From Nocardia yamanashiensis NBRC 100130 (GTDB taxonomy: Bacteria > Actinomycetota > Actinomycetes > Mycobacteriales > Mycobacteriaceae), in NCBI RefSeq assembly GCF_001613325.1, contig NZ_BDCD01000026.1, positions 1 through 64,000 of the forward strand: 64,000 nt of DNA, given 5' to 3'. Under the pieces are notes generated by a model. It searched no databases. It saw only the letters and a list, made by a program, of their open reading frames with translations, and was not told the origin of the DNA. Below, piece after piece: positions 8,613 to 20,807 of the stretch; position 1 is the first letter of the stretch; each line of letters begins with the position of its first letter. The position numbers and the translations under genes were made by a program.

Positions 8613-9374
8613 CTAGTAATTCTGCTGGGTACCCAATTGCTGCTGGATTACTCCCTGCAGGCGCTGCAGTCCGATGGGGGTGACGCCGCTCTGCAGCTGG
8701 CCCTCGATGGTGCGCACCAGGTGCGCGTCGTCGAGGATCTTCTCGCTGGACTGGATGAGCACCGTGCCCGCGCCGGTGAAATCGAACTGGCGCTCCTCGC
8801 CGGAGGTCACCCCGAAGCGGGCCGCGCCGGCCGCCAGGAAGCTGCTCACCCAGCGCTGATCATAGTGATGACTGGGGGACGGGCAGTCCGCCCAGCCGAC
8901 CAGCGATTCCGGATCCACCCGCAGCGGCGGTTCGGCGAACATGACCGGGCCGTTGGAGGAGGCCAGGAACTTGCCGGTGCCGATCAGGGTCAGGAAGCCC
9001 GGCACGATGGACTGTTTCAGTGCCAGTTCGGGTTCGAACGCCAGCAGGTTGGCGGCCCGCACCGTGAGGTTGCCGTTGTCCAGGTCGAAGCTGTTGATGT
9101 TGTAGCCGCGGTCGCCGATCAGCAGCTTTCCCTGCCCCTCGGCAACCACGTAGTCACCGCCGAAGAGCGGGGCCGAGAACTGTTGCGCCACCATGTGCAA
9201 CAGCCCGCCCTGCAACCCGTGGGTGAGCGCCTGGAACCGCATCTCGCCGTAGTGGGCGATCATCGCGCCCTTGCGCATGAACCACGGTTTACGCAGATCG
9301 ATGCAGTAGGCGTAGTCGTTGCCCGGAACATTGTCGCTCTCACCGAGATTCATCGGATTCAGAATCTGGCTCAC
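8613..9374 (-). CDS. AIM24 family protein (third of three)
   Basis: Protein of 253 aa of the AIM24/TIGR00266 beta-sandwich family. It has the core FMRKGAMIAHYGEMRF, LIGDRGYNINSFDL, a hydrophobic SIVPGFLTLIGTGKFLAS and FTGAGTVLIQSSEK near the C-terminus. Function in bacteria is unknown; the family recurs beside TerD genes. GTG start overlaps the stop of the preceding AIM24 gene (GTGA), so the two are co-translated. It is the longest of the three paralogues here. Confidence 0.75.
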   Translation of the reverse strand: MSQILNPMNLGESDNVPGNDYAYCIDLRKPWFMRKGAMIAHYGEMRFQALTHGLQGGLLHMVAQQFSAPLFGGDYVVAEGQGKLLIGDRGYNINSFDLDNGNLTVRAANLLAFEPELALKQSIVPGFLTLIGTGKFLASSNGPVMFAEPPLRVDPESLVGWADCPSPSHHYDQRWVSSFLAAGAARFGVTSGEERQFDFTGAGTVLIQSSEKILDDAHLVRTIEGQLQSGVTPIGLQRLQGVIQQQLGTQQNY

Positions 9375-10078
9375 AGCTTCTCCTCGCTGGCCTGCACGTA
9401 CACCACGCCCTGCCCGACGCAGTGCAGCTGCATGGCCTCGCCGGAACCGCGGCCGACGGCGTCGCGCCAGCTCAGTGCCGTCTTCAATTCGGTCTGCACA
9501 TTGCCGTAGGCGGCCACGAACGCCTGCGGATCCACCACCACCGGGTACTGGCCGCCGACCTGGAGTTCCAGGAACCCGCCGTGCGCCAGCAGCACCGCGC
9601 TGCCCTGACCGGACAGCTGGGTGGTGAACATGCCCGCGCCGGTGAGCATTCCGCTCGCCGCGCCGCGCAGCGCACCCATCAGGCCGCCGCCGCGCCCACC
9701 GCCGCCACCGCCGCCCGAACTCGCCACGGAGACGATCGAACTCTGCAATTGCGCGGTATTGGCCAGCAGCCGTGAGGCTTCCACCCGCAGCACCGCGCCC
9801 GGCTGCATGTGCACGATGTGGGTCTCCAGACCCGCGAAACCGTAATGCACTTCGCCGTTGCCGGTGGCCAGCATGGTGCGCTCGTGCTCGCCGGCCATCA
9901 TGCGCCCGGCCATGCCCATCAGGCCGCCCATGCCGCCCATCTGGCCCGCGCCCGGAATCTGGTGCGGCTGGAAGGACACGTCGCCGGTGTAGAAGAGCAT
10001 GGACCCGGTGCGGGCCACCACTCCCCCGGCCCGTCCGGCGTGCACCTTGACGACTTTCCCGTTCACCTGCTCGAACAT
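9371..10078 (-). CDS. AIM24 family protein (second of three)
   Basis: Protein of 235 aa with an AIM24 fold: VVARTGSMLFYTGDVSF near residue 20, VEASRLLAN near 105, then a glycine-rich loop ([12 protein letters not shown]) and the C-terminal QLHCVGQGVVYVQ. The glycine-rich loop is a visible difference from its neighbours. GAGGGA lies six bases before the ATG. It starts ten bases after the first paralogue and overlaps the third. Confidence 0.75.
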   Translation of the reverse strand: MFEQVNGKVVKVHAGRAGGVVARTGSMLFYTGDVSFQPHQIPGAGQMGGMGGLMGMAGRMMAGEHERTMLATGNGEVHYGFAGLETHIVHMQPGAVLRVEASRLLANTAQLQSSIVSVASSGGGGGGGRGGGLMGALRGAASGMLTGAGMFTTQLSGQGSAVLLAHGGFLELQVGGQYPVVVDPQAFVAAYGNVQTELKTALSWRDAVGRGSGEAMQLHCVGQGVVYVQASEEKL

Positions 10079-10088
10079 CAGCGGTCCC

Positions 10089-10712
10089 TCACCGTTCCGC
10101 GGGCTGGATCAACACGACGCCGTGCCCGTCGTAGCGCAGCGAGAACGCTTCTCCGCCATCCTGTCCCAGCGCCGAGCGCCACGACACGTCGGTGACGAAG
10201 GACTGGTTCAGATTGCCGCGCGAGGCCACGAACGCGTCCGGATCCACCACCAGCGGGTACTGCGGGGACACCTCCAGATGGATGAGCGGCCCGCCCGCCG
10301 ACAGCAGCGCGACCTGACCGGTGCCGCTGACCGTGGTGGTGAAAAGGCCCGCGCCGGTGGAGGCTCCGCGCAGGCCCGCGAACGCCACATTGGTGCGCAA
10401 CTGCCCGGCGAAGGCCAGCAGCTGCTGCGATTCCACCTGCAGCGTCTCGTTGTTCAGGTTCACCACGGTGACGTGCTGGCCGTTGACGGCGAAGAACACG
10501 CGCCCATTGCCGGTGCATTCCATGAGGGACAGCGATTCTCCGGTGGCGCGGCGTTTCAGTCCCGCCAGCACCCCGTCGCCCCCGCCGAAACCGGCGCTCT
10601 TGAACTGCACATTGCCTTCATAGGCGACCATGGAACCCGCGATCGCGCGGAGGCTGTCCCCCGCGAGATGGGCTTCGATCACCTTCTTGGATTTCTCGAA
10701 CAGCTGCGCCAT
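10089..10712 (-). CDS. AIM24 family protein (first of three)
   Basis: Protein of 207 aa, shortest of three tandem AIM24 paralogues. It shows IAGSMVAYEGNVQFKSAGFG, FFAVNGQHVTVVNL, VESQQLLAF and a C-terminal LRYDGHGVVLIQPAE. I take the ATG at 10712 with GAGG upstream; a GTG one codon earlier is possible. It heads the minus-strand AIM24 group and is divergent from the double-TerD gene, sharing a 111-base upstream region. Confidence 0.75.
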   Translation of the reverse strand: MAQLFEKSKKVIEAHLAGDSLRAIAGSMVAYEGNVQFKSAGFGGGDGVLAGLKRRATGESLSLMECTGNGRVFFAVNGQHVTVVNLNNETLQVESQQLLAFAGQLRTNVAFAGLRGASTGAGLFTTTVSGTGQVALLSAGGPLIHLEVSPQYPLVVDPDAFVASRGNLNQSFVTDVSWRSALGQDGGEAFSLRYDGHGVVLIQPAER

Positions 10713-10823
10713 CACTGCCTCGTACTCGTATTTGCGGCAACCCTAACCGATCAGGTCAACGGCTGGTGTCCGAGTTTTCCCCTAGAGTGGCGTGCGTCAG
10801 CATCGACAAGCGAAGGGTCAGTC

Positions 10824-12041
10824 TTGTCCGCAGTACTGGTGAAGGGCCAGAACGGCCCTTTGAACGTCAATGATGTGGTGATCGGCATCCAGGTCGCGGC
10901 CCCCGCGGACCTGTCCGCGCTGCTGGTCACCGAGAGCGGCAAGGTGCGCTCCGACGCGGATTTCGTGTTCTTCAACCAGCCCACCGGTCCCGGCGTGCAG
11001 TTGCAGCCCGGCGCTCCCGGCCAGTCCGGCGTGCTGGCGGTGTCGCTGGGCGCGGTGCCCGCCGATATCGCGCAGTTGCGCGCGGTCATCACCCTCGACG
11101 ATCCGAGCACCAATTTCGGCCGGATCGCGCCGCCGGTGGTGACGGTGTCCGACAGCGGCGGAAATCCGTTGTACGAGTACCGCATCGAGGGCCTCACCAC
11201 CGAATCCATCGTGATCGCCGTGGAGTTGTACCGGCGCGGATCGGATTGGAAGGTGCGCGCCATCGGCCAGGGGTACGCGGGTGGTTTCGCGGCCCTGGTC
11301 ACCGATCACGGCGTGAACGTGAACGAGCCCGCCGCGCAGCCCGCGCCCGCGAGCTATCAGCAGCCCGCGCCGACGGGTGGTCCGGGCTATCCGCCGCCCG
11401 CGGGCCCGGGCTATCAGCAGCCGGCTCCCGAGCCGTTCCCGGATCGCGACCTGCCCAAGAACCATGCCGTCAGCCTGGTGAAGGGCCAGCGCGTCAACCT
11501 CCGCAAGGAGGGCGGCAGCGCGCTCACCTACGTCAAGATGGGTCTGGGCTGGGATCCGGTCAAGCGCGGCGGCCTGCTGGGCAGCCGCGCCGTCGATATC
11601 GATCTGGACGCCTCGGTCATCCTCTTCGCCGATATGAGCCCGGTGGATGTCGTCTACTACGGGTCGCTGGCGTCCAAGGACGGCTCGGTCCGGCATCAGG
11701 GCGACAACCTCACCGGTGAGGGCGCGGGCGACGACGAGGTCATCCTGGTCGATCTCACCCGGATCTCCCCGCAGGTGACCACGCTGCTGTTCACCGTGAC
11801 CTCCTACAAGGGTCACACCTTCGAACAGGTCGCGAATGCCTTCTGCCGCTTGGTGGACGGCGCGTCCAATGCCGAACTGGCCCGCTACACCCTGGCCGGC
11901 GGCATGCCCTTCACCGGCATGGTGATGGCCAAGGTCTACCGCTCGGGCGGGGACTGGAAGCTGGAGGCCATCGGCGAGGGCATCCAGGCCAAACATCCCG
12001 GCGAGGCCGTCCCGCAGCTGGGGCGCTTCGTCGGCGCCTGA
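10824..12041 (+). CDS. Double TerD-domain stress protein
   Basis: Protein of 405 aa with two TerD-like domains: the first about 1-175 (DFVFFNQPTGPGV, VELYRRGSDWKVRAIGQGY), a Pro/Gln/Tyr-rich linker (about 176-225), and the second about 226-405 (GLGWDP, DIDLDASVILF, HQGDNLTGEGAGDDEVILVDL, VYRSGGDWKLEAIGEG). The second keeps the acidic calcium-binding loops of TerD; the first has lost most of the acidic residues. The TTG at 10824 is preferred because AAGGG lies upstream and the frame before it has no family similarity. A TAGAGT box at 10783-10788 could be its -10 element. Cytoplasmic by sequence. Confidence 0.8.
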   Translation: MSAVLVKGQNGPLNVNDVVIGIQVAAPADLSALLVTESGKVRSDADFVFFNQPTGPGVQLQPGAPGQSGVLAVSLGAVPADIAQLRAVITLDDPSTNFGRIAPPVVTVSDSGGNPLYEYRIEGLTTESIVIAVELYRRGSDWKVRAIGQGYAGGFAALVTDHGVNVNEPAAQPAPASYQQPAPTGGPGYPPPAGPGYQQPAPEPFPDRDLPKNHAVSLVKGQRVNLRKEGGSALTYVKMGLGWDPVKRGGLLGSRAVDIDLDASVILFADMSPVDVVYYGSLASKDGSVRHQGDNLTGEGAGDDEVILVDLTRISPQVTTLLFTVTSYKGHTFEQVANAFCRLVDGASNAELARYTLAGGMPFTGMVMAKVYRSGGDWKLEAIGEGIQAKHPGEAVPQLGRFVGA

Positions 12042-13101: not shown

Positions 13102-13953
13102 TCAGGCGGCGACCTCCGGGGTGGCGTTGTGGAACCAGTCGAGGATTTCCTCACCGGCGAGAATGCCCGCCGCACTGGTGATGGTCAGGTTGGGCGAGGT
13201 CCAGGCGAGTTGTTCGAGTTCGCCGTGCCGGGGCCGGATGGCGGCGTCGGCGGCGCGCAGCATCTCCGCGTCCAGCGCGCCGTCACCGGCGGCCAGCACT
13301 CGCGAATCGGCTTCCAGCACACCGGATTCGATGAGCCGGCGCCGCACCTCGGCGACCGCGCGGCTCTTGCAGACGGCATCGGGCATGGTGTAGATCTTGC
13401 GGCCCTGCTGGGAGGCGGACCAGCCGCGGGGGCGGCACCAGGCATCCCAGGCGGCGAGGAAATCGGCGGGCAGGGCGGCGGTGTCGACCACCAGGTAGTT
13501 GAAGAGGTGGTCGGCGACCCGGAACTTCTTGACGAAGGAATCGCTGATGCGGGACCGGAGTTCGGCGTTCACCTGCGAGAGGGTCGCGCTCGTGGTGCGG
13601 ACCTCGGTGTCGAGGTCGATGCGCCAGCGCAGATCGGGCTTGCCGTGGTGCAGGATATTGCCGCCGTTGGTGGTGATGGCGTACGGCCACGGCGCGCCCG
13701 GTAGCCGGATCCGGTTGAACTGCTTGATGGTTCGCGTGGTGGTGGGGATGACCGCGGCCGGGACGGTGAGGGCTCGCATGCGATCCGCGGCGGCGGTGGT
13801 CATATAGGAGAGCGGGGAGCCCTCCAGGTGTTCCACCACCACCGTGGACGGCTCGGGCGCGGCGCCGAAGGCATTGCGGGAGTAGATCATGGTGCGATCG
13901 AGATCCGTCGCCACCAGCACGGATCTCGGGGACAGGCGTCTTCGGTGCGGCAT
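13102..13953 (-). CDS. HAD-family phosphatase of the Ter operon
   Basis: Protein of 283 aa. The HAD motif I is DLDRTMIYS (17-25), with the two catalytic aspartates. Motif II lies in VIPTTTRTIKQF and the late motif in VLAAGDGALDAEML. The cap region resembles Cof/sucrose-phosphatase-type HAD enzymes. Start ATG overlaps the stop of the PRTase fusion (TAATG). HAD proteins in Ter biosynthetic clusters are predicted to remove phosphate from a nucleotide-like product; the substrate is unproven. Confidence 0.8.
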   Translation of the reverse strand: MPHRRRLSPRSVLVATDLDRTMIYSRNAFGAAPEPSTVVVEHLEGSPLSYMTTAAADRMRALTVPAAVIPTTTRTIKQFNRIRLPGAPWPYAITTNGGNILHHGKPDLRWRIDLDTEVRTTSATLSQVNAELRSRISDSFVKKFRVADHLFNYLVVDTAALPADFLAAWDAWCRPRGWSASQQGRKIYTMPDAVCKSRAVAEVRRRLIESGVLEADSRVLAAGDGALDAEMLRAADAAIRPRHGELEQLAWTSPNLTITSAAGILAGEEILDWFHNATPEVAA

Positions 13954-16352
13954 TACTTCTTCACGTCCTTGATCAGGCCCATACAGGCGTAGGCGAGGTC
14001 GGGCACGACCTCGACCGGCACGCCCCGGGCGGCGGCGAGCAGACGGATGTGGGCGTGCTCCGGCGCGTCCGCGTCGCGCACCAGCACCCGCCAGGGCAGC
14101 CGGCGCAGCAGCACCCGGGTGGTCTCGCCGACACCGGGTTTCACGAAATTGACCGAGGCGATGCCGTACTCTTCGCGCACCTTCTCCACCGAGGCCCAGC
14201 CCGCCCAGGTGGGCGTGCGATCCGCGGCTTGCACGGCGGCGACCTGCGCGGCCACCTGCGGGCGGACGGCGTCGAAGCTCGCGCTCACCCGGTCCAGCAG
14301 GCGCGCGGACACATCGTCGGGGATCAGGTCGCGGTAGTACTTGGCGCCGTGGAAGTCCCGGGGGCCGATCAGGGTGTCGTTGAGCACGGTGCGCGAAACC
14401 AGTCCGGACACAGTGGAATTCAGGCAGGCCGAGGCGATGAGGAAATCGTCTCGGGTGCCGTAGGTGCGCACGCAGCCGCCGGGATCGGCGAGCACCACCA
14501 GTTCGTCGTCGAAACGCGCGCCGCCCGCGGCCTCGTACGCCCGCAGCGCCTCGGTCAGTTCCCGGGTGATCGCGCCCTTGCCGGTCCAGCCGTCCACGAA
14601 CACGATGCTCGCCGGATCATGGTGCTGGGCCAGGTAATCCAGCGCGACCGGGTCGATGCCCCGGTCCCGCACGATCGACACCGCGTAGTGCGGGACGTCC
14701 AGCCCGCGGGTCGCCAGCCAGCGGCGCATCAGGATGCCGACCGGCGTGCCCGCGCGGGCCAGCGAGACCAGCACGATATCGGTGCCGCGCTGCGCCACCA
14801 CGAGTTCGGACACCGTCGCCACCGCCAGCGCGAGACGGTCGGCGCTGTCCTCGAGCACCCGGTCGAACAGCTCGCGATAGGCGGCGTCGGGCTGGTATTC
14901 GATGGGCAGCGATTCCGCGTAGTGCGCGACGCCGGACTGGATGCGCTGTTCGCGCTCGGCCACCTCGGCTTCCAGATCCACCGCCGACAGGTCCTTGAGC
15001 AGCCAGGTCACCTCGTCGGCGGCATAGGACCCGAATTCCGTTCCGCGCAACGGTTTCGGCAGTTCGGTGCGCGCGGCGGCGAGGGCGCGCGGATCGGCCT
15101 CGGGGAGCACGGCCAGCACCACGTCCGCGCCGGACGCGGTGAGCACGTCGAGCAGCCCGCCGTCGGCGGTGAGCCGGTCGGTGTCGGCGGGTTCGTCGAT
15201 GACGACCAGCAGGATCGGCGCCGCGGCGGCCGGTTCCGGCCAGGCCGCGTTGTAGACATAGCGGGCCGCGTCCTCACCGGCTTCCGGTGCGGTGAAACGG
15301 AATCCGCGCCGCAGCGGGTAGCCGGGCTCGTCCAGCACGTACGCCGGGGAGCGGGTGGTGGTCTGGTAGCGGGTGGGGATGCCGCCGTCGGCGAGGGTCG
15401 CGGCCAGCCGCAACGGCAGGTACATGAGCTCCTCGTGACCGAGCACGATGATCGGCCGGGTATGCCGGTCGCCGGCCGCGCCGCCCCAGGGCAGCGCGTC
15501 CAGTCCGCGCCGCAGGGTCCCGGCGGCGGCGGTCAGCGCGGCCTCGAAGGCGCGCCCGTCCGAGCGCAGGATGCCGTGCCGTCCGCCTTCGGGAACGCCT
15601 GCGGGCCAGGGCAGTTCGATCCGGGCGAGCTGGCCGCGACCGGCCGCGACCGGGTTCAGCTCCGGCTCGGGCAGCGCCTGCACGGAATCGACCAGGTTCG
15701 CCGGCAGCAGCGTCTCACCGGCGGCCAGGCAGACGGTGTCGATGCGCGCGCCGAGTTCGGCGGCGGCCGCGTCGAAAGCCGCCTTGTCCGCCTCGGTGCG
15801 CATGTCCACCAGCGAGGCCAGCACGTAGTGGGTGCGCGGGGTGAACTCGTGCAGCGCCCGGATGGCGTCCAGCGCCGTTGCGCCCGTGGAGATCTCGTCG
15901 TCGACCAGCACCATGGGCAGCGCATTCAGGAAGATCCGCGCGGGCGCGGGCTGCAGCAGATGCGAGGTGGCGTGCGAATGCCCCTCCTCGAACCCGGTGA
16001 GCGTCTCGGCGGTCGGCACCTCGCGCCGGGTGGAGTGCAGGTAGCACTCGGCGTCCACGCGCGCGGCCACGCAATGCCCGAGTCCCGTTGCGGTCTCGGC
16101 GAATCCGAGCACCACCACCGGACCGGTCACCACCTCGCGCACCAGCTCGCCCAGCCGGTTCCCGGCCTCGATCACCCGGTGCGGATCGGTCGGCAGATGC
16201 TTGCCCAGCACCGTGGACACCAGCAGGTGCGCCCGGCGCGGATTGCGCCGCAGCCCCGGTTCGACGAGCGCGGGGATCTCCCACTCCGCCACGTACGAAT
16301 TGCCGTGCCGCAGTCCGAGTCCCAGCTCCCGGGTGGCCCAGGGCGAGCTCAC
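13953..16352 (-). CDS. Four-domain fusion: phosphoribosyltransferase, TRSP, StiP/PRTase_1 and PELOTA RNA-binding
   Basis: Protein of 799 aa. (1) Residues 1-~200: orotate-type PRTase with the PRPP loop VLVDDEISTGAT (148-159). (2) ~230-455: TRSP domain ending in EFGSYAADEVTWLLKDLS. (3) ~465-720: StiP-type domain (also named PRTase_1), beginning near EREQRIQSGVAHYAESLP and containing VSLARAGTPVGILMRR and VFVDGWTGKGA. (4) ~724-799: PELOTA RNA-binding domain with AHIRLLAAARGVPVEVV. These modules are known from Ter-linked clusters, usually as separate genes. GTG start in a GTGA overlap with the CitE-like gene. The pathway is predicted to make a nucleoside-like metabolite. Confidence 0.8.
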   Translation of the reverse strand: MSSPWATRELGLGLRHGNSYVAEWEIPALVEPGLRRNPRRAHLLVSTVLGKHLPTDPHRVIEAGNRLGELVREVVTGPVVVLGFAETATGLGHCVAARVDAECYLHSTRREVPTAETLTGFEEGHSHATSHLLQPAPARIFLNALPMVLVDDEISTGATALDAIRALHEFTPRTHYVLASLVDMRTEADKAAFDAAAAELGARIDTVCLAAGETLLPANLVDSVQALPEPELNPVAAGRGQLARIELPWPAGVPEGGRHGILRSDGRAFEAALTAAAGTLRRGLDALPWGGAAGDRHTRPIIVLGHEELMYLPLRLAATLADGGIPTRYQTTTRSPAYVLDEPGYPLRRGFRFTAPEAGEDAARYVYNAAWPEPAAAAPILLVVIDEPADTDRLTADGGLLDVLTASGADVVLAVLPEADPRALAAARTELPKPLRGTEFGSYAADEVTWLLKDLSAVDLEAEVAEREQRIQSGVAHYAESLPIEYQPDAAYRELFDRVLEDSADRLALAVATVSELVVAQRGTDIVLVSLARAGTPVGILMRRWLATRGLDVPHYAVSIVRDRGIDPVALDYLAQHHDPASIVFVDGWTGKGAITRELTEALRAYEAAGGARFDDELVVLADPGGCVRTYGTRDDFLIASACLNSTVSGLVSRTVLNDTLIGPRDFHGAKYYRDLIPDDVSARLLDRVSASFDAVRPQVAAQVAAVQAADRTPTWAGWASVEKVREEYGIASVNFVKPGVGETTRVLLRRLPWRVLVRDADAPEHAHIRLLAAARGVPVEVVPDLAYACMGLIKDVKK

Positions 16353-17566
16353 GACGCCAGCGCTTTCAGCAGATCCACGAACGAAACCCCTTTGTTGGTG
16401 ACACCGAATACCTTGGCCCGCAACAGCGTCTGGCGGGCCCAGCTGCGATGCGGCTTCATCTCGTTCATCTTGTTGCGATACTCCGAGGCCGCCACGCCGC
16501 CCGCGTCCTGCTGCAGGATGTCGAGCGCGTCGGAGTATTCCTCGTGGGTGACCACCGACAGCGCGTGCACCACCGCCACGTGCGAGGGATGGATGACGGT
16601 CTTGCCCTGGATGCCGTTGGTGCGATCGAGCGCGATCTCCCGCAGCAGCCCGTCCAGATCCCGGCTGACCAGGTACTCCCGGAACGGCACCGCGTCCACC
16701 TCGGCGAACGGGGAGGTGCGCAGCATGGGCCGGAACATGCGCTCGTGGTCGGCGAAGTACTCCCAGACCGGGCCGGTGATGGTGAAGCCGGTGCCGTCGG
16801 TGCGGCCCAGATAGTTCACGATGTCGGCGATCACGTCGGCGACCACCCGCACGTCGTAGATGGTCAGGTCGCGGTCGCGCCGGATGCCGAAGGTGGAGCA
16901 CATGTCGGTGGCCCCGATGCGCACCGCCAGCACCTTGTCCCGATGCGCGGTGAGCATGTCCTGGATGCGATGCAGTTCCAGATCCCGGGTCTGCCGGTGC
17001 ACCAGCGCGGGCGATTCCAGCACCGGCATGCCGAACACGGTGCGCCCCAGGCGTTCCGACGCCGCTTCGATGGCAGCCAGGTATTTCTCGCCGGACGCGC
17101 TGTCGAACTTGGGGAAGATGAAACCGGTCAAAACCCTTGCGCCGGGCCCGATCCAGTCGATGATCTGGCCGATGGTCTCGGCGTCGCGCACCCGCACGAA
17201 CAGCAGCGGGAACAGGTCCACGCCCGCGCCGATCTCGTCCAGGGTGGCCGCGGCCTGGCGCTTGCCGAACTCCAGATCGTGGTCGGCGACGGCATCCTCG
17301 AGGTCGATGACCATCGAGCACACCCCGCGCTGGGCCCGTTTGATGATGGCGGCGGTGAGGTCGTCACGGGTGGCGGGCACGTACAGCGTCGCGCCCAGCG
17401 CCATCGCCAGGGTGTCGCGGTCGTGGGATTCGCCGAAGGGTTCGGGCAGGCGGTGGAACAGCAGGCGTAGCTCGGGTCCCGGTACCTGCCGGTGATGTCG
17501 CATGGGTATGCGCTTGTGCAGCGATACGGGAGCGACGTCCGGCCTGGTGGTGATAATCGCGGTCAT
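16349..17566 (-). CDS. CitE-like HpcH/HpaI-family C-C lyase of the Ter operon
   Basis: Protein of 405 aa. TIM-barrel landmarks are ALGATLYVPATRDDL, CSMVIDLEDAVADHD (metal-binding acidic residues), VRIGATDMCSTFG and GIQGKTVIHPSHV. CitE-like lyases cleave or form carbon-carbon bonds of acyl-CoA or 2-oxo acids with Mg2+. In Ter gene groups a member of this family is part of the predicted metabolite pathway. GGGGG lies just before the ATG at 17566. Overlaps the following fusion gene by four bases and is 32 bases after the coiled-coil gene. Confidence 0.8.
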   Translation of the reverse strand: MTAIITTRPDVAPVSLHKRIPMRHHRQVPGPELRLLFHRLPEPFGESHDRDTLAMALGATLYVPATRDDLTAAIIKRAQRGVCSMVIDLEDAVADHDLEFGKRQAAATLDEIGAGVDLFPLLFVRVRDAETIGQIIDWIGPGARVLTGFIFPKFDSASGEKYLAAIEAASERLGRTVFGMPVLESPALVHRQTRDLELHRIQDMLTAHRDKVLAVRIGATDMCSTFGIRRDRDLTIYDVRVVADVIADIVNYLGRTDGTGFTITGPVWEYFADHERMFRPMLRTSPFAEVDAVPFREYLVSRDLDGLLREIALDRTNGIQGKTVIHPSHVAVVHALSVVTHEEYSDALDILQQDAGGVAASEYRNKMNEMKPHRSWARQTLLRAKVFGVTNKGVSFVDLLKALAS

Positions 17567-17598: not shown

Positions 17599-18804
17599 CT
17601 ATCTATCGGTATTTCGCATGCGTTCGACCACACCCGTGATGAACGCCGTAATGGCGTCGAGCTCGGAGACATAGGCCCAGTAGTCGGGATGCCGGCCCTC
17701 GGCGAGGCCGGCGGTGGCCCGATCCAGGCGGTCGGACTGGGCGTCCAGTACCGATCCCCATTGCGGGACGAGACCGCTGTTGACCGCCAGCATCTGCGCG
17801 TCGCGCAGTTTGAACCGGACGGCCTTGGCCTTGTCCTGCGGCTTGTCGCGAACCTCTCGCAAGAGGGTGAGCCGGTCGGTAACCGCGTCGGCTTTCTCCT
17901 CGGCGACAGCGAGCTGTCCGCGGGCGGATGTGGTCAGTTCAAGCGTTTGCTCCGGGTCGTTGTTCTGCAATGCCGCCCGGGCACGGGACAGATCCGCGTC
18001 GGCGGCGTCGATGGCCCGCAGGGCTTCGCGTTCATTGTTGGTCAAATCGGACGAACTCGCAGCGTTGAACTCCCGGAGCAGGGCGGACAGCGCCGGCGGG
18101 ATCCGATCCAGCCGATTGCGCGCGGCGGCCAGCCGGGTACCCGCCGAGGCCAGTGCGGTGGTGGCCGAATGCTGTTTGCCCGGTGCGTCTTCCAGGGCCC
18201 TTGACAAGGTTCTGGTGCGGGTCTCCAGGTGGGTTGCGGCCTCACGCGCCGCCCCCGCGCCGGACCCCGCCAGCACCCCCTCCAGGGTGATCAATCCCTC
18301 ATCCACGGCCGCCGCCGCGGCCCGCACCGACGGATACCCGGCGTACGGCGAAGCCGCCGCCGCTTCGCACGCCGCCTGGGCCGCCGACCGCACCTGATTC
18401 ACCAATTGCGGCACCGTCCCGTACACCGCGACCGCGTGCTCCAGATGCGCCTGATTGCCCCGATAGAAATCGTCCACCGCGCGCGCCGCGTCCCCGAGCC
18501 GGCGGATCTGGGTGTCGACCTCCGGCTGCGCCACCGTGCCGCCGTCCCGTTCCACCTGGTCCAAACGCTCGGTCAGCGCCAGATACGCGCCCGCCGCGTC
18601 GTAGCAGCGCGCTCGCACCGGCTCCCACGCGGCGGCCATCCCGCGCTCCGGGAACACCGCCGCCGAGGCCGCCACCGCCGCCTCGGCGATGCTCTGCCGC
18701 TTGTCCATGTCCAGGAAGGCCGCGGTCAGCGCCGAGCGCGCCTGCTGCACCCATTCGGTGTTCCGGGAGGATCCGCGAAACCATCCCCGTCTACGGCCTG
18801 TCAC
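17599..18804 (-). CDS. Uncharacterised coiled-coil protein heading the Ter biosynthetic operon
   Basis: Protein of 401 aa, almost wholly helical and Ala/Arg/Glu/Asp-rich, with no recognised domain. Repeated heptad-like stretches lie around 30-160 and 215-330. No signal peptide. It is the first gene of the operon that ends with the mycolyltransferase. Start is GTG at 18804, six bases after a TACGAT box, which suggests a leaderless mRNA. A scaffold or membrane-peripheral role is possible but not shown. Confidence 0.6.
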   Translation of the reverse strand: MTGRRRGWFRGSSRNTEWVQQARSALTAAFLDMDKRQSIAEAAVAASAAVFPERGMAAAWEPVRARCYDAAGAYLALTERLDQVERDGGTVAQPEVDTQIRRLGDAARAVDDFYRGNQAHLEHAVAVYGTVPQLVNQVRSAAQAACEAAAASPYAGYPSVRAAAAAVDEGLITLEGVLAGSGAGAAREAATHLETRTRTLSRALEDAPGKQHSATTALASAGTRLAAARNRLDRIPPALSALLREFNAASSSDLTNNEREALRAIDAADADLSRARAALQNNDPEQTLELTTSARGQLAVAEEKADAVTDRLTLLREVRDKPQDKAKAVRFKLRDAQMLAVNSGLVPQWGSVLDAQSDRLDRATAGLAEGRHPDYWAYVSELDAITAFITGVVERMRNTDR

Positions 18805-18816: not shown

Positions 18817-19015
18817 GGAGACTGTTCACATCGTCGGCCACGTCCGCGATCGTGTGGGTGACAAGTCGTGCCACAGGAGTGTCCCGTTCCTTGTCCTCGG
18901 TTTGTTCCTGCACGAGGGTCACACTTGCTACTAGTGTCGTAGTGGCGGACCCGGCAAATCGGACATGCCGCGAACCAACAACGCTAGAACGCTTTCCTAC
19001 GAAAGGGATTCCCGC

Positions 19016-19591
19016 ATGGGTGTCAGTTTGTCCAAGGGCGGCAACGTTTCGCTGACGAAGCAGGCGCCGAACCTGACCCAGGTCGCCGTCGGCCTCGGCT
19101 GGGATGTGCGCACCACCACGGGGACCGACTTCGACCTGGACGCGAGCGCCATCGCGACCGGCGCCGACAAGAAGGTCGTGTCCGACAAGCACTTCGTCTT
19201 CTTCAACAACCTGTCTTCGCCCGAAGGCGCCATCGTGCACGCCGGTGACAACCGCACCGGTGAGGGCGAAGGCGACGACGAGGTCATCAACGTCGACCTG
19301 GCCGCCACCCCGCCGACCATCGAGTCCATCTTCTTCCCGGTCTCGATCTACGAGGCGGAGGGCCGCGGCCAGAGCTTCGGCCAGGTCCGCAACGCCTACA
19401 TCCGCGTGGTGGATCGCGCCAACGGCAACGAGCTGGCCCGCTACGACCTGTCCGAGGACGCCTCCACCGAGACCGCCATGGTCTTCGGCGAGCTGTACCG
19501 CAACGGCGCCGAATGGAAGTTCCGCGCCATCGGCCAGGGGTACGCTTCCGGACTGGCCGGTATCGCCCGCGACTACGGCGTCACCGTCTGA
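19016..19591 (+). CDS. terD: TerD family calcium-binding stress protein
   Basis: Protein of 191 aa matching TerD over its full length: MGVSLSKGGNVSLTK, GLGWD, the acidic loop FDLDASAI, HAGDNRTGEGEGDDEVINVDL, VRNAYIRVVDRANG and GAEWKFRAIGQGY. TerD proteins bind calcium and form a membrane-linked complex with TerC-type proteins in resistance to tellurite and other stress. GAAAGGGA precedes the ATG at 19016. It is divergent from the Ter biosynthetic operon (211-base spacer) and 100 bases upstream of the DUF475 gene. Confidence 0.92.
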   Translation: MGVSLSKGGNVSLTKQAPNLTQVAVGLGWDVRTTTGTDFDLDASAIATGADKKVVSDKHFVFFNNLSSPEGAIVHAGDNRTGEGEGDDEVINVDLAATPPTIESIFFPVSIYEAEGRGQSFGQVRNAYIRVVDRANGNELARYDLSEDASTETAMVFGELYRNGAEWKFRAIGQGYASGLAGIARDYGVTV

Positions 19592-19691: not shown

Positions 19692-20807
19692 GTGCGTATT
19701 TTCGGCCTCTCCATAGTCGTCACGATCGCATCGCTGATCGCGGCGTTCCTCTACGGCGGACCAACGGCGTTCGCGCTGTGCGCGATTCTGGGCATCCTCG
19801 AGGTGTCACTGTCCTTCGACAACGCGGTCATCAACGCCTCCATCCTGCAGAAGATGAGCGACTGGTGGCAGAAGATCTTCCTCACCGTCGGCGTGCTCAT
19901 CGCCGTCTTCGGTATGCGCCTGGTGTTCCCGCTCGCCATCGTGTGGGTGACCGCGGGCCTCAACCCGGCCAAGGCCTTCGACCTGGCCATGAACCCGCCC
20001 GCGGACGGCGCGCTCGAATTCCCCAACGGGGACCCGAGTTACGAGAAGCTGCTGACCGACGCGCACCCGCAGATCGCGGCCTTCGGCGGCGCGTTCCTGC
20101 TGCTGCTGTTCCTGAACTTCATCCTCGAAGAGCACGAGATCACCTGGCTGGGCTGGCTGGAGCGCCCGCTCGCCAAGCTCGGCAAGCTCGACATGCTCTC
20201 CGTGGTCATCACCCTGCTCGGCATCGTGCTGGCCGCCGAATTCCTGGCCAAGGACAAGGATGTCAGCACCGTGCTGCTGGCCGGCATCCTCGGCGTGGTC
20301 ACCTACATCGTGGTCGACGGGCTCGGCTCCATGTTCCACACCGAGGAGTTCGAAGAGGAGAACGCCTCCGGGCCTTCGGAATTGGTGAAGGCCACCGGTA
20401 AGGCCGGCTTCTTCCTGTTCCTGTACCTGGAAGTGCTCGACGCCTCGTTCTCCTTCGACGGCGTCATCGGCGCCTTCGCCATCACCTCCGACCCGATCCT
20501 GATCGCGCTGGGCCTGGGCCTGATCGGCGCCATGTTCGTCCGGTCCATCACCGTGTACCTGGTGCGCAAGGGCACGCTCTCGGAGTATGTGTACCTCGAG
20601 CACGGCGCGCACTGGGCCATCGGCGCGCTGGCGGTCATCCTGCTGGTGTCGATCGGCGTGCACATCAACGAGCTCATCACCGGTCTCGTCGGCGTCGGCT
20701 TCATCGGCGCGGCCTTCCTCACCAGCATCATCCGCAATCGTCGCGAAGGCGATGACGACGGCGGCGCCAAAAGCCTGAGCGAGCAGGAAGTCACGCCGGT
20801 AGGCTGA
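19692..20807 (+). CDS. TerC-superfamily integral membrane protein (DUF475)
   Basis: Protein of 371 aa with about nine membrane segments. The duplicated acidic signatures LEVSLSFDNAVINA (near 38) and LEVLDASFSFDGVIGAF (near 246) mark the TerC/DUF475 superfamily, whose members are linked to metal (often manganese) transport and to TerD proteins. GTG start at 19692 after GAAAGG. It follows terD and ends in a strong terminator, so terD and this gene probably form one unit. Confidence 0.85.
   Translation: MRIFGLSIVVTIASLIAAFLYGGPTAFALCAILGILEVSLSFDNAVINASILQKMSDWWQKIFLTVGVLIAVFGMRLVFPLAIVWVTAGLNPAKAFDLAMNPPADGALEFPNGDPSYEKLLTDAHPQIAAFGGAFLLLLFLNFILEEHEITWLGWLERPLAKLGKLDMLSVVITLLGIVLAAEFLAKDKDVSTVLLAGILGVVTYIVVDGLGSMFHTEEFEEENASGPSELVKATGKAGFFLFLYLEVLDASFSFDGVIGAFAITSDPILIALGLGLIGAMFVRSITVYLVRKGTLSEYVYLEHGAHWAIGALAVILLVSIGVHINELITGLVGVGFIGAAFLTSIIRNRREGDDDGGAKSLSEQEVTPVG

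Follow-up and report, generated by a model that had tools for sequence, protein, structure and literature searches.

A four-domain Ter-island fusion protein of Nocardia yamanashiensis, with StiP as a possible second phosphoribosyl pyrophosphate-dependent transferase

The first 64,000 nucleotides of contig NZ_BDCD01000026.1 of Nocardia yamanashiensis NBRC 100130 (the window, here) include a Ter island in which one 799-amino-acid reading frame on the minus strand (13953..16352; GTG start at 16352, TAA stop) encodes PRTase_2, TRSP, StiP, and PELOTA_1 domains, in that order. With moderate confidence, this protein is read here as an enzyme using phosphoribosyl pyrophosphate (PRPP), with two catalytic domains of phosphoribosyltransferase (PRTase) fold, the second of which, StiP, would be a PRPP-dependent transferase acting together with dephosphorylation by a HAD phosphatase. 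The PRTase fold of StiP is well supported by structure modeling; a closer kinship to ribofuranosyltransferases than to ordinary PRTases is moderately supported by the same models. The lead of most value is this reassignment of StiP and its pairing with the HAD gene, rather than the fusion itself.

All four domains, proposed in a preliminary description from the nucleotide sequence, are recovered in the one frame by Pfam, each far over cut-off: PRTase_2 at residues 29–213 (15714..16268, minus strand, as for all parts of the fusion; E 1e-64), with an APRT-like fold and an intact PRPP loop; TRSP at residues 255–403 (15144..15590; E 1e-31), with the motif T-T-T-R-S-P; StiP at residues 441–689 (14286..15032; E 1e-105); and the L7Ae-like PELOTA_1 at residues 716–795 (13968..14207; E 3e-35, with L7Ae chains at E 0.009). 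Between TRSP and StiP is the fusion junction, residues 404–440 (15033..15143), the site of a 4-base NTGA gene overlap in split relatives. Two kinds of evidence indicate that the join is translated and under constraint: in comparison with Nocardia relatives, the third position differs in 37–43% of codons, against 8–15% for the first and second positions, and across the junction (residues 416–446) 22–25 of 31 residues are kept. As one AlphaFold chain, the whole fusion is modeled well, with a predicted local distance difference test score (pLDDT) of 90.2 and a predicted template modeling score (pTM) of 0.80. The gene is present in a single copy in the genome. A plus-strand frame across 13953–16352 is also open, but is not the gene.

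Both in the whole-chain model and when modeled separately (pLDDT 86.9, pTM 0.89), StiP has the alpha/beta fold of phosphoribosyltransferases. The separate model was re-aligned by VIA to Foldseek's top 1000 Protein Data Bank (PDB) chains, and most of the matching rows were PRTases. PRPP-dependent ribofuranosyltransferases, enzymes of capsule synthesis, came closest: the top matches were to Bcs3 of Haemophilus influenzae type b (Hib), with 8a0c at Z 12.2 (root-mean-square deviation [rmsd] 4.0, 200 residues aligned) and 8a0m at Z 10.9, and the Thermobacillus composti ribofuranosyltransferase 7shg scored Z 10.7 over 195 aligned residues. PyrR, HGPRT, and XPRT gave Z 8.2–9.2 over 113–155 residues. 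To call StiP a PRTase is a return to an earlier view, and the ribofuranosyltransferase link is what is added here: a 2017 paper lists PRTase_1 beside PELOTA_1 in Escherichia coli and cites Ter work for the joining of PRTase to PELOTA in Ter operons (PMC5571608), a 2021 review says that the Ter system of phage ME3 includes PRTases (PMC7824862), and the StiP protein of that phage is annotated “phosphoribosyl transferase.” The 2017 paper, the account of Ter in the 2021 review as a combination of nucleobase PRTases with HAD enzymes (PMC7824862), and the StiP matches to PyrR and HGPRT at Z ~9 would all suit a StiP that is a second ordinary, N-glycoside-forming PRTase, in which case the fusion would produce a nucleoside-like metabolite by two steps on a base or an intermediate, in line with the published Ter model. 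This is possible, if somewhat doubtful: the ribofuranosyltransferases fit StiP better, over ~50 more residues, and its PRPP loop has one acid where two are usual.

That loop is one of three near-invariant motifs in a set of 93 StiP sequences, 86 actinobacterial and seven distant, from actinobacteria, proteobacteria, phages, and viral contigs. They are a pyrophosphate-loop-like S530-x-x-R533-A-G-x-P-x-G539 (14736..14765), phage and proteobacterial sequences included; H555-Y-x-x-S559-I-x-R562-x-x-G-x-D567 (14652..14690); and the PRPP-loop-like F585-V-D587-G-W-x-G-K-G-A-I595 (14568..14600). The conserved residues include S530, R533, H555, S559, R562, D587, G591, K592, and G593. A vicinal acidic pair was sought in the PRPP loop and is absent, with D587-G588 in its place. 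A loop as non-canonical as this might belong instead to a non-catalytic, PyrR-like regulator, an RNA-binding StiP-PELOTA sensor of PRPP or nucleotides with control over the operon or the enzyme. PyrR, itself an RNA-binding regulator of PRTase fold, scores highest of the ordinary PRTases (Z 9.2), and PELOTA is L7Ae-like; still, such a role seems unlikely, as near-invariance of pocket-like motifs in phage, proteobacteria, and actinobacteria fits an active site better, and the HAD gene travels with StiP.

The same alignment bears on the current Pfam name of PF11202 and on RefSeq product names, according to which StiP would be a cysteine protease, processing a partner. This is scarcely credible. 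Across the 93 sequences no cysteine column is conserved: positions 627 and 643 are cysteine in 85 of the 86 actinobacterial sequences, but in the seven distant ones read V,V,C,R,R,C,I and C,C,M,I,I,I,I, respectively. The modeled fold is that of a PRTase, and in the literature searched the phrase occurs in one paper only.

Relatives of the StiP-PELOTA half numbered at least 576 in a scan of one genome per species; the best 80, all actinobacterial, were analyzed further. In every one of these 80 loci the fusion, or else the StiP gene, is followed by a HAD gene. A HAD-IIB-like gene is likewise found between PRTase and StiP in E. coli, Pseudomonas, and phage ME3, and adjoins StiP in Rhizobium and two IMG/VR contigs. 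This recalls CriT, which makes an O-linked ribose-5-phosphate from PRPP with the HAD phosphatase CrpP as partner, and in which D680 and E818, on two different loops, stand in for the DD motif, the vicinal pair being broken up (PMC10299916); the pairing of a glycan phosphoribosyltransferase (gPRT) with a HAD protein recurs in O antigens and Campylobacter capsule (PMC11127046, PMC12096443, PMC11231755). StiP resembles the Hib Bcs3 CriT-CrpP and Thermobacillus enzymes (8a0c, 7shg) in its PRTase-like fold with flanking helices. Both Hib Bcs3 and the Ter islands pair a transferase-fold gene with a HAD phosphatase, PRPP being the donor in the known enzymes, and both CriT and StiP do without the vicinal acid pair, StiP having a single acid in its PRPP-like loop. 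D587 may correspond to CriT E818, to judge by its place in the loop. The likenesses should be taken as parallels, not proof. StiP has no detectable sequence similarity to the CriT and Thermobacillus enzymes, there is no glycan locus here, and a predicted RNA-binding domain is found instead.

Several further results weigh against a ribofuranosyltransferase-like role for StiP. Foldseek by itself found no match under E 0.001, though PyrR and HGPRT had high probability; a StiP profile showed no significant similarity to solved PRTases or ribofuranosyltransferases among PDB sequences; and comparison of StiP with PRTase_2 by hhalign was not significant (P 0.15). Z scores of ~11–12 at rmsd 4 denote a shared fold, not an activity. 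An acid equivalent to CriT D680 was sought in the pyrophosphate loop of StiP, and none was found. Finally, the HAD protein here is, by resemblance, of the MPGP/sucrose-phosphatase type.

The domains, the fold, the conservation, the operon, and the fused/split interchange are observed; if StiP is nonetheless a second PRPP-dependent transferase, the chemistry proposed, including the sequence of its two reactions as well as acceptor and product, is as follows. PRTase_2, with TRSP as its obligate C-terminal partner, would attach ribose-5-phosphate to a base; a CitE-like lyase would make or trim that base, or an acyl or carbon substituent. StiP, as fold kin of the CriT-type gPRTs, would add a second ribose-5-phosphate to a hydroxyl on the product of PRTase_2 or on a PELOTA-bound RNA, and the neighboring HAD phosphatase would then remove the 5-phosphate. 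PELOTA would bind RNA as guide, regulator, or acceptor. Fusion would mainly fix the dose at 1:1, which split relatives would reach via overlapping genes. The preliminary description was right as to the Ter setting and the four domains, but its order of steps, which led from base or nucleotide chemistry to an RNA-bound stage, overlooked StiP as an apparent second phosphoribosyltransferase. A bolder and rather improbable extension is stress-linked RNA O-ribosylation in bacteria, spread by plasmids and jumbo phages, with a chemistry analogous to that of eukaryotic Rit1. The resemblance to Rit1, the tRNA 2'-O-ribosyl-phosphate transferase of plants and fungi, would be one of proposed chemistry only, a transfer from PRPP onto one of the ribose hydroxyls of RNA (PMC7694415, PMC11301382); Rit1 is eukaryotic, and is likened to StiP on no other ground.

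The first catalytic domain is more conventional. Residues 25–215 combine the fold and the DDxxxTGxT PRPP loop of type I phosphoribosyltransferases; the loop, D151-D152-E-I-S-T-G-A-T159 (15876..15902), has D151, D152, E153, T156, G157, and T159 invariant in alignment A2. A first VIA search with the fusion model returned rows spanning residues 18–221 only, hence PRTase_2 alone, with E. coli APRT (Z 12.0, rmsd 3.0, 177 residues aligned) and XPRT (Z 11.6) closer in fold than orotate enzymes (Z 10.5), so that the earlier label “orotate-type” is not supported. In TRSP, R334, S335, and P336 are invariant in alignment A2. Profile comparison among PRTase_2, TRSP, and StiP by hhalign revealed no significant link. 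An in-register VLGxxE ... TRR/TRSP correspondence was seen between PRTase_2 and TRSP (residues 77–110 and 301–337, within 15342–16124, minus strand; P 0.008–0.05, not significant). TRSP may be a decayed internal copy of the PRTase domain. At the other end of the protein, PELOTA_1 is predicted to bind RNA from its sequence: K-P-G-V-G-E-T-T-R (residues 738–746, 14115..14141) aligns with the L7Ae stretch K-K-G-T-N-E-T-T-K, setting G-E-T-T-R opposite the N-E-T-T-K of the L7Ae NExxK RNA-contact motif.

The fusion is real, but as a variant of the known Ter module it is common. The best 80 loci include 59 fused four-domain genes, 13 split pairs, two apparent splits that look like frameshifts or a stop (L069, L073; excluded from the split count), five cut by contig ends, and one unresolved, and the ratio of fused to split was counted over the 72 intact relatives (59 + 13). 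Among the matches listed, the nearest is from Nocardia crassostreae (87% over the StiP-PELOTA half). The fused form is usual in Streptomyces and Nocardia, though two Nocardia are among the 13 split relatives, and is an ordinary, labile state in the phylum; in a class-wide sample, StiP is over cut-off in 92 of 395 genomes. For 12 of the 13 split pairs, a possible start of the second gene lies in an NTGA that overlaps the first gene's stop; the remaining pair has CTGA there. The second frame stands in the same relation to the first in all 13 (one frame apart), so that a small indel would fuse the genes. On a quick tree of the 93 StiP-PELOTA sequences the state changes at least seven times, a rough figure, many branches being modestly supported. 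The preliminary description held that two separate genes in relatives would count against the fusion: 13 intact relatives are indeed split, and Prescottella equi too, but 59 of 72 are fused. It also took the fusion to be a channeling device, passing an intermediate of base or nucleotide chemistry on to an RNA-bound step. The presence of all domains in one chain with a short linker would allow for this, but split overlapping pairs are common and interchange with fusions, leaving channeling without support as the reason for the fusion, and quite unlikely. Given this interchange, the fusion looks like a means of holding two partners at equal dose, and is not evidence for channeling.

The surroundings are those of a Ter-linked biosynthetic operon, as had been proposed, with PRTase, TRSP, CitE-like lyase, HAD, and PELOTA near TerD and TerC. 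The CitE-like C-C bond lyase (16349..17566, minus strand; PF15617, E 7e-123) overlaps the start of the fusion with its stop (GTGA), and the HAD-IIB phosphatase (13102..13953, minus strand; NCBIfam MPGP family, E 7e-7, under the family cut-off) overlaps the stop of the fusion with its start (TAATG); from these overlaps, lyase, fusion, and HAD are read as a translationally coupled operon. Its apparent first gene (17599..18804, minus strand) encodes a conserved protein for which a Pfam search found no family; most Nocardiaceae loci have a homologue ahead of the lyase gene, and more distant matches sit elsewhere in Streptomyces loci. On the plus strand are genes for TerD (18965..19591; PF02342, E 3e-83), a DUF475/TerC membrane protein (19692..20807; PF04332, E 1e-133; PF03741, E 4e-17), and a double TerD protein (10818..12041, 5' bound provisional; PF02342 in two stretches). 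Downstream of the operon are three AIM24-family genes in a row (8613–10715, minus strand); 15 of the 80 loci, most of them from Nocardia, have AIM24-like matches. PADLOC and PHROGs searches gave no matches.

Known Ter systems share most of this content. The Ter-linked cluster of Anantharaman, Iyer, and Aravind (2012), so far as later papers relate it (PMC7824862, PMC5571608, PMC8115787), has PRTase_2-TRSP, StiP-PELOTA, a CitE-like lyase, and a HAD protein beside TerD/TerC; here, by contrast, two of its genes are joined into one, and the actinobacterial islands have no ATP-grasp gene. The ter cluster of an E. coli IncHI2 plasmid (CP090263.1) has the same enzyme set as here, but with PRTase-TRSP and StiP-PELOTA separate, the HAD gene between them, and ATP-grasp first. 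Prescottella equi p1-WH99 has the same gene order as here, at 59–73% identity to the two halves of the fusion, but as two genes with an ATGA overlap. The jumbo phage vB_AbaM_ME3 of Acinetobacter (L094, 7171–10062) carries a compact set of PRTase, HAD, and StiP-PELOTA near Ter-like genes, and the annotations of its 19 kb stretch include no lyase and no ATP-grasp; this set is perhaps the minimal core of the pathway. On Mesorhizobium and Rhizobium plasmids (L118, L119), StiP genes lie near several transposases, and the PRTase and lyase genes annotated nearby in L119 appear truncated, at 280 and 129 aa, respectively.

The lack of an ATP-grasp gene in the island, remarked on in the preliminary description, was confirmed, and is not peculiar to this genome, since a Ter ATP-grasp homologue was found in none of the 80 actinobacterial islands. 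Elsewhere in the genome there is only one strong ATPgrasp_Ter match, on another contig (C2), with 27% identity to the ter enzyme of E. coli; this gene (C2:115503-115877) has as neighbors a very large peptide-synthetase-like frame and one that resembles acyl-CoA dehydrogenases, and is not near Ter genes. A strong match was found in only seven of 59 congeneric genomes, 48 of which have PRTase_2 over cut-off. For these reasons the actinobacterial pathway probably does without ATP-grasp. The gene is present in the E. coli and Pseudomonas plasmid clusters, and in the latter (L010, 7678–8817; L120, 3877–5016) an annotated trypsin-like peptidase lies between ATP-grasp and PRTase.

Few accessory stress loci are as common on clinical plasmids as the Ter island. 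As a PRPP-dependent transferase, StiP would offer a concrete assay, where its current database name, as a protease, would misdirect experiments; and the fused protein would provide a single chain on which both steps can be examined.

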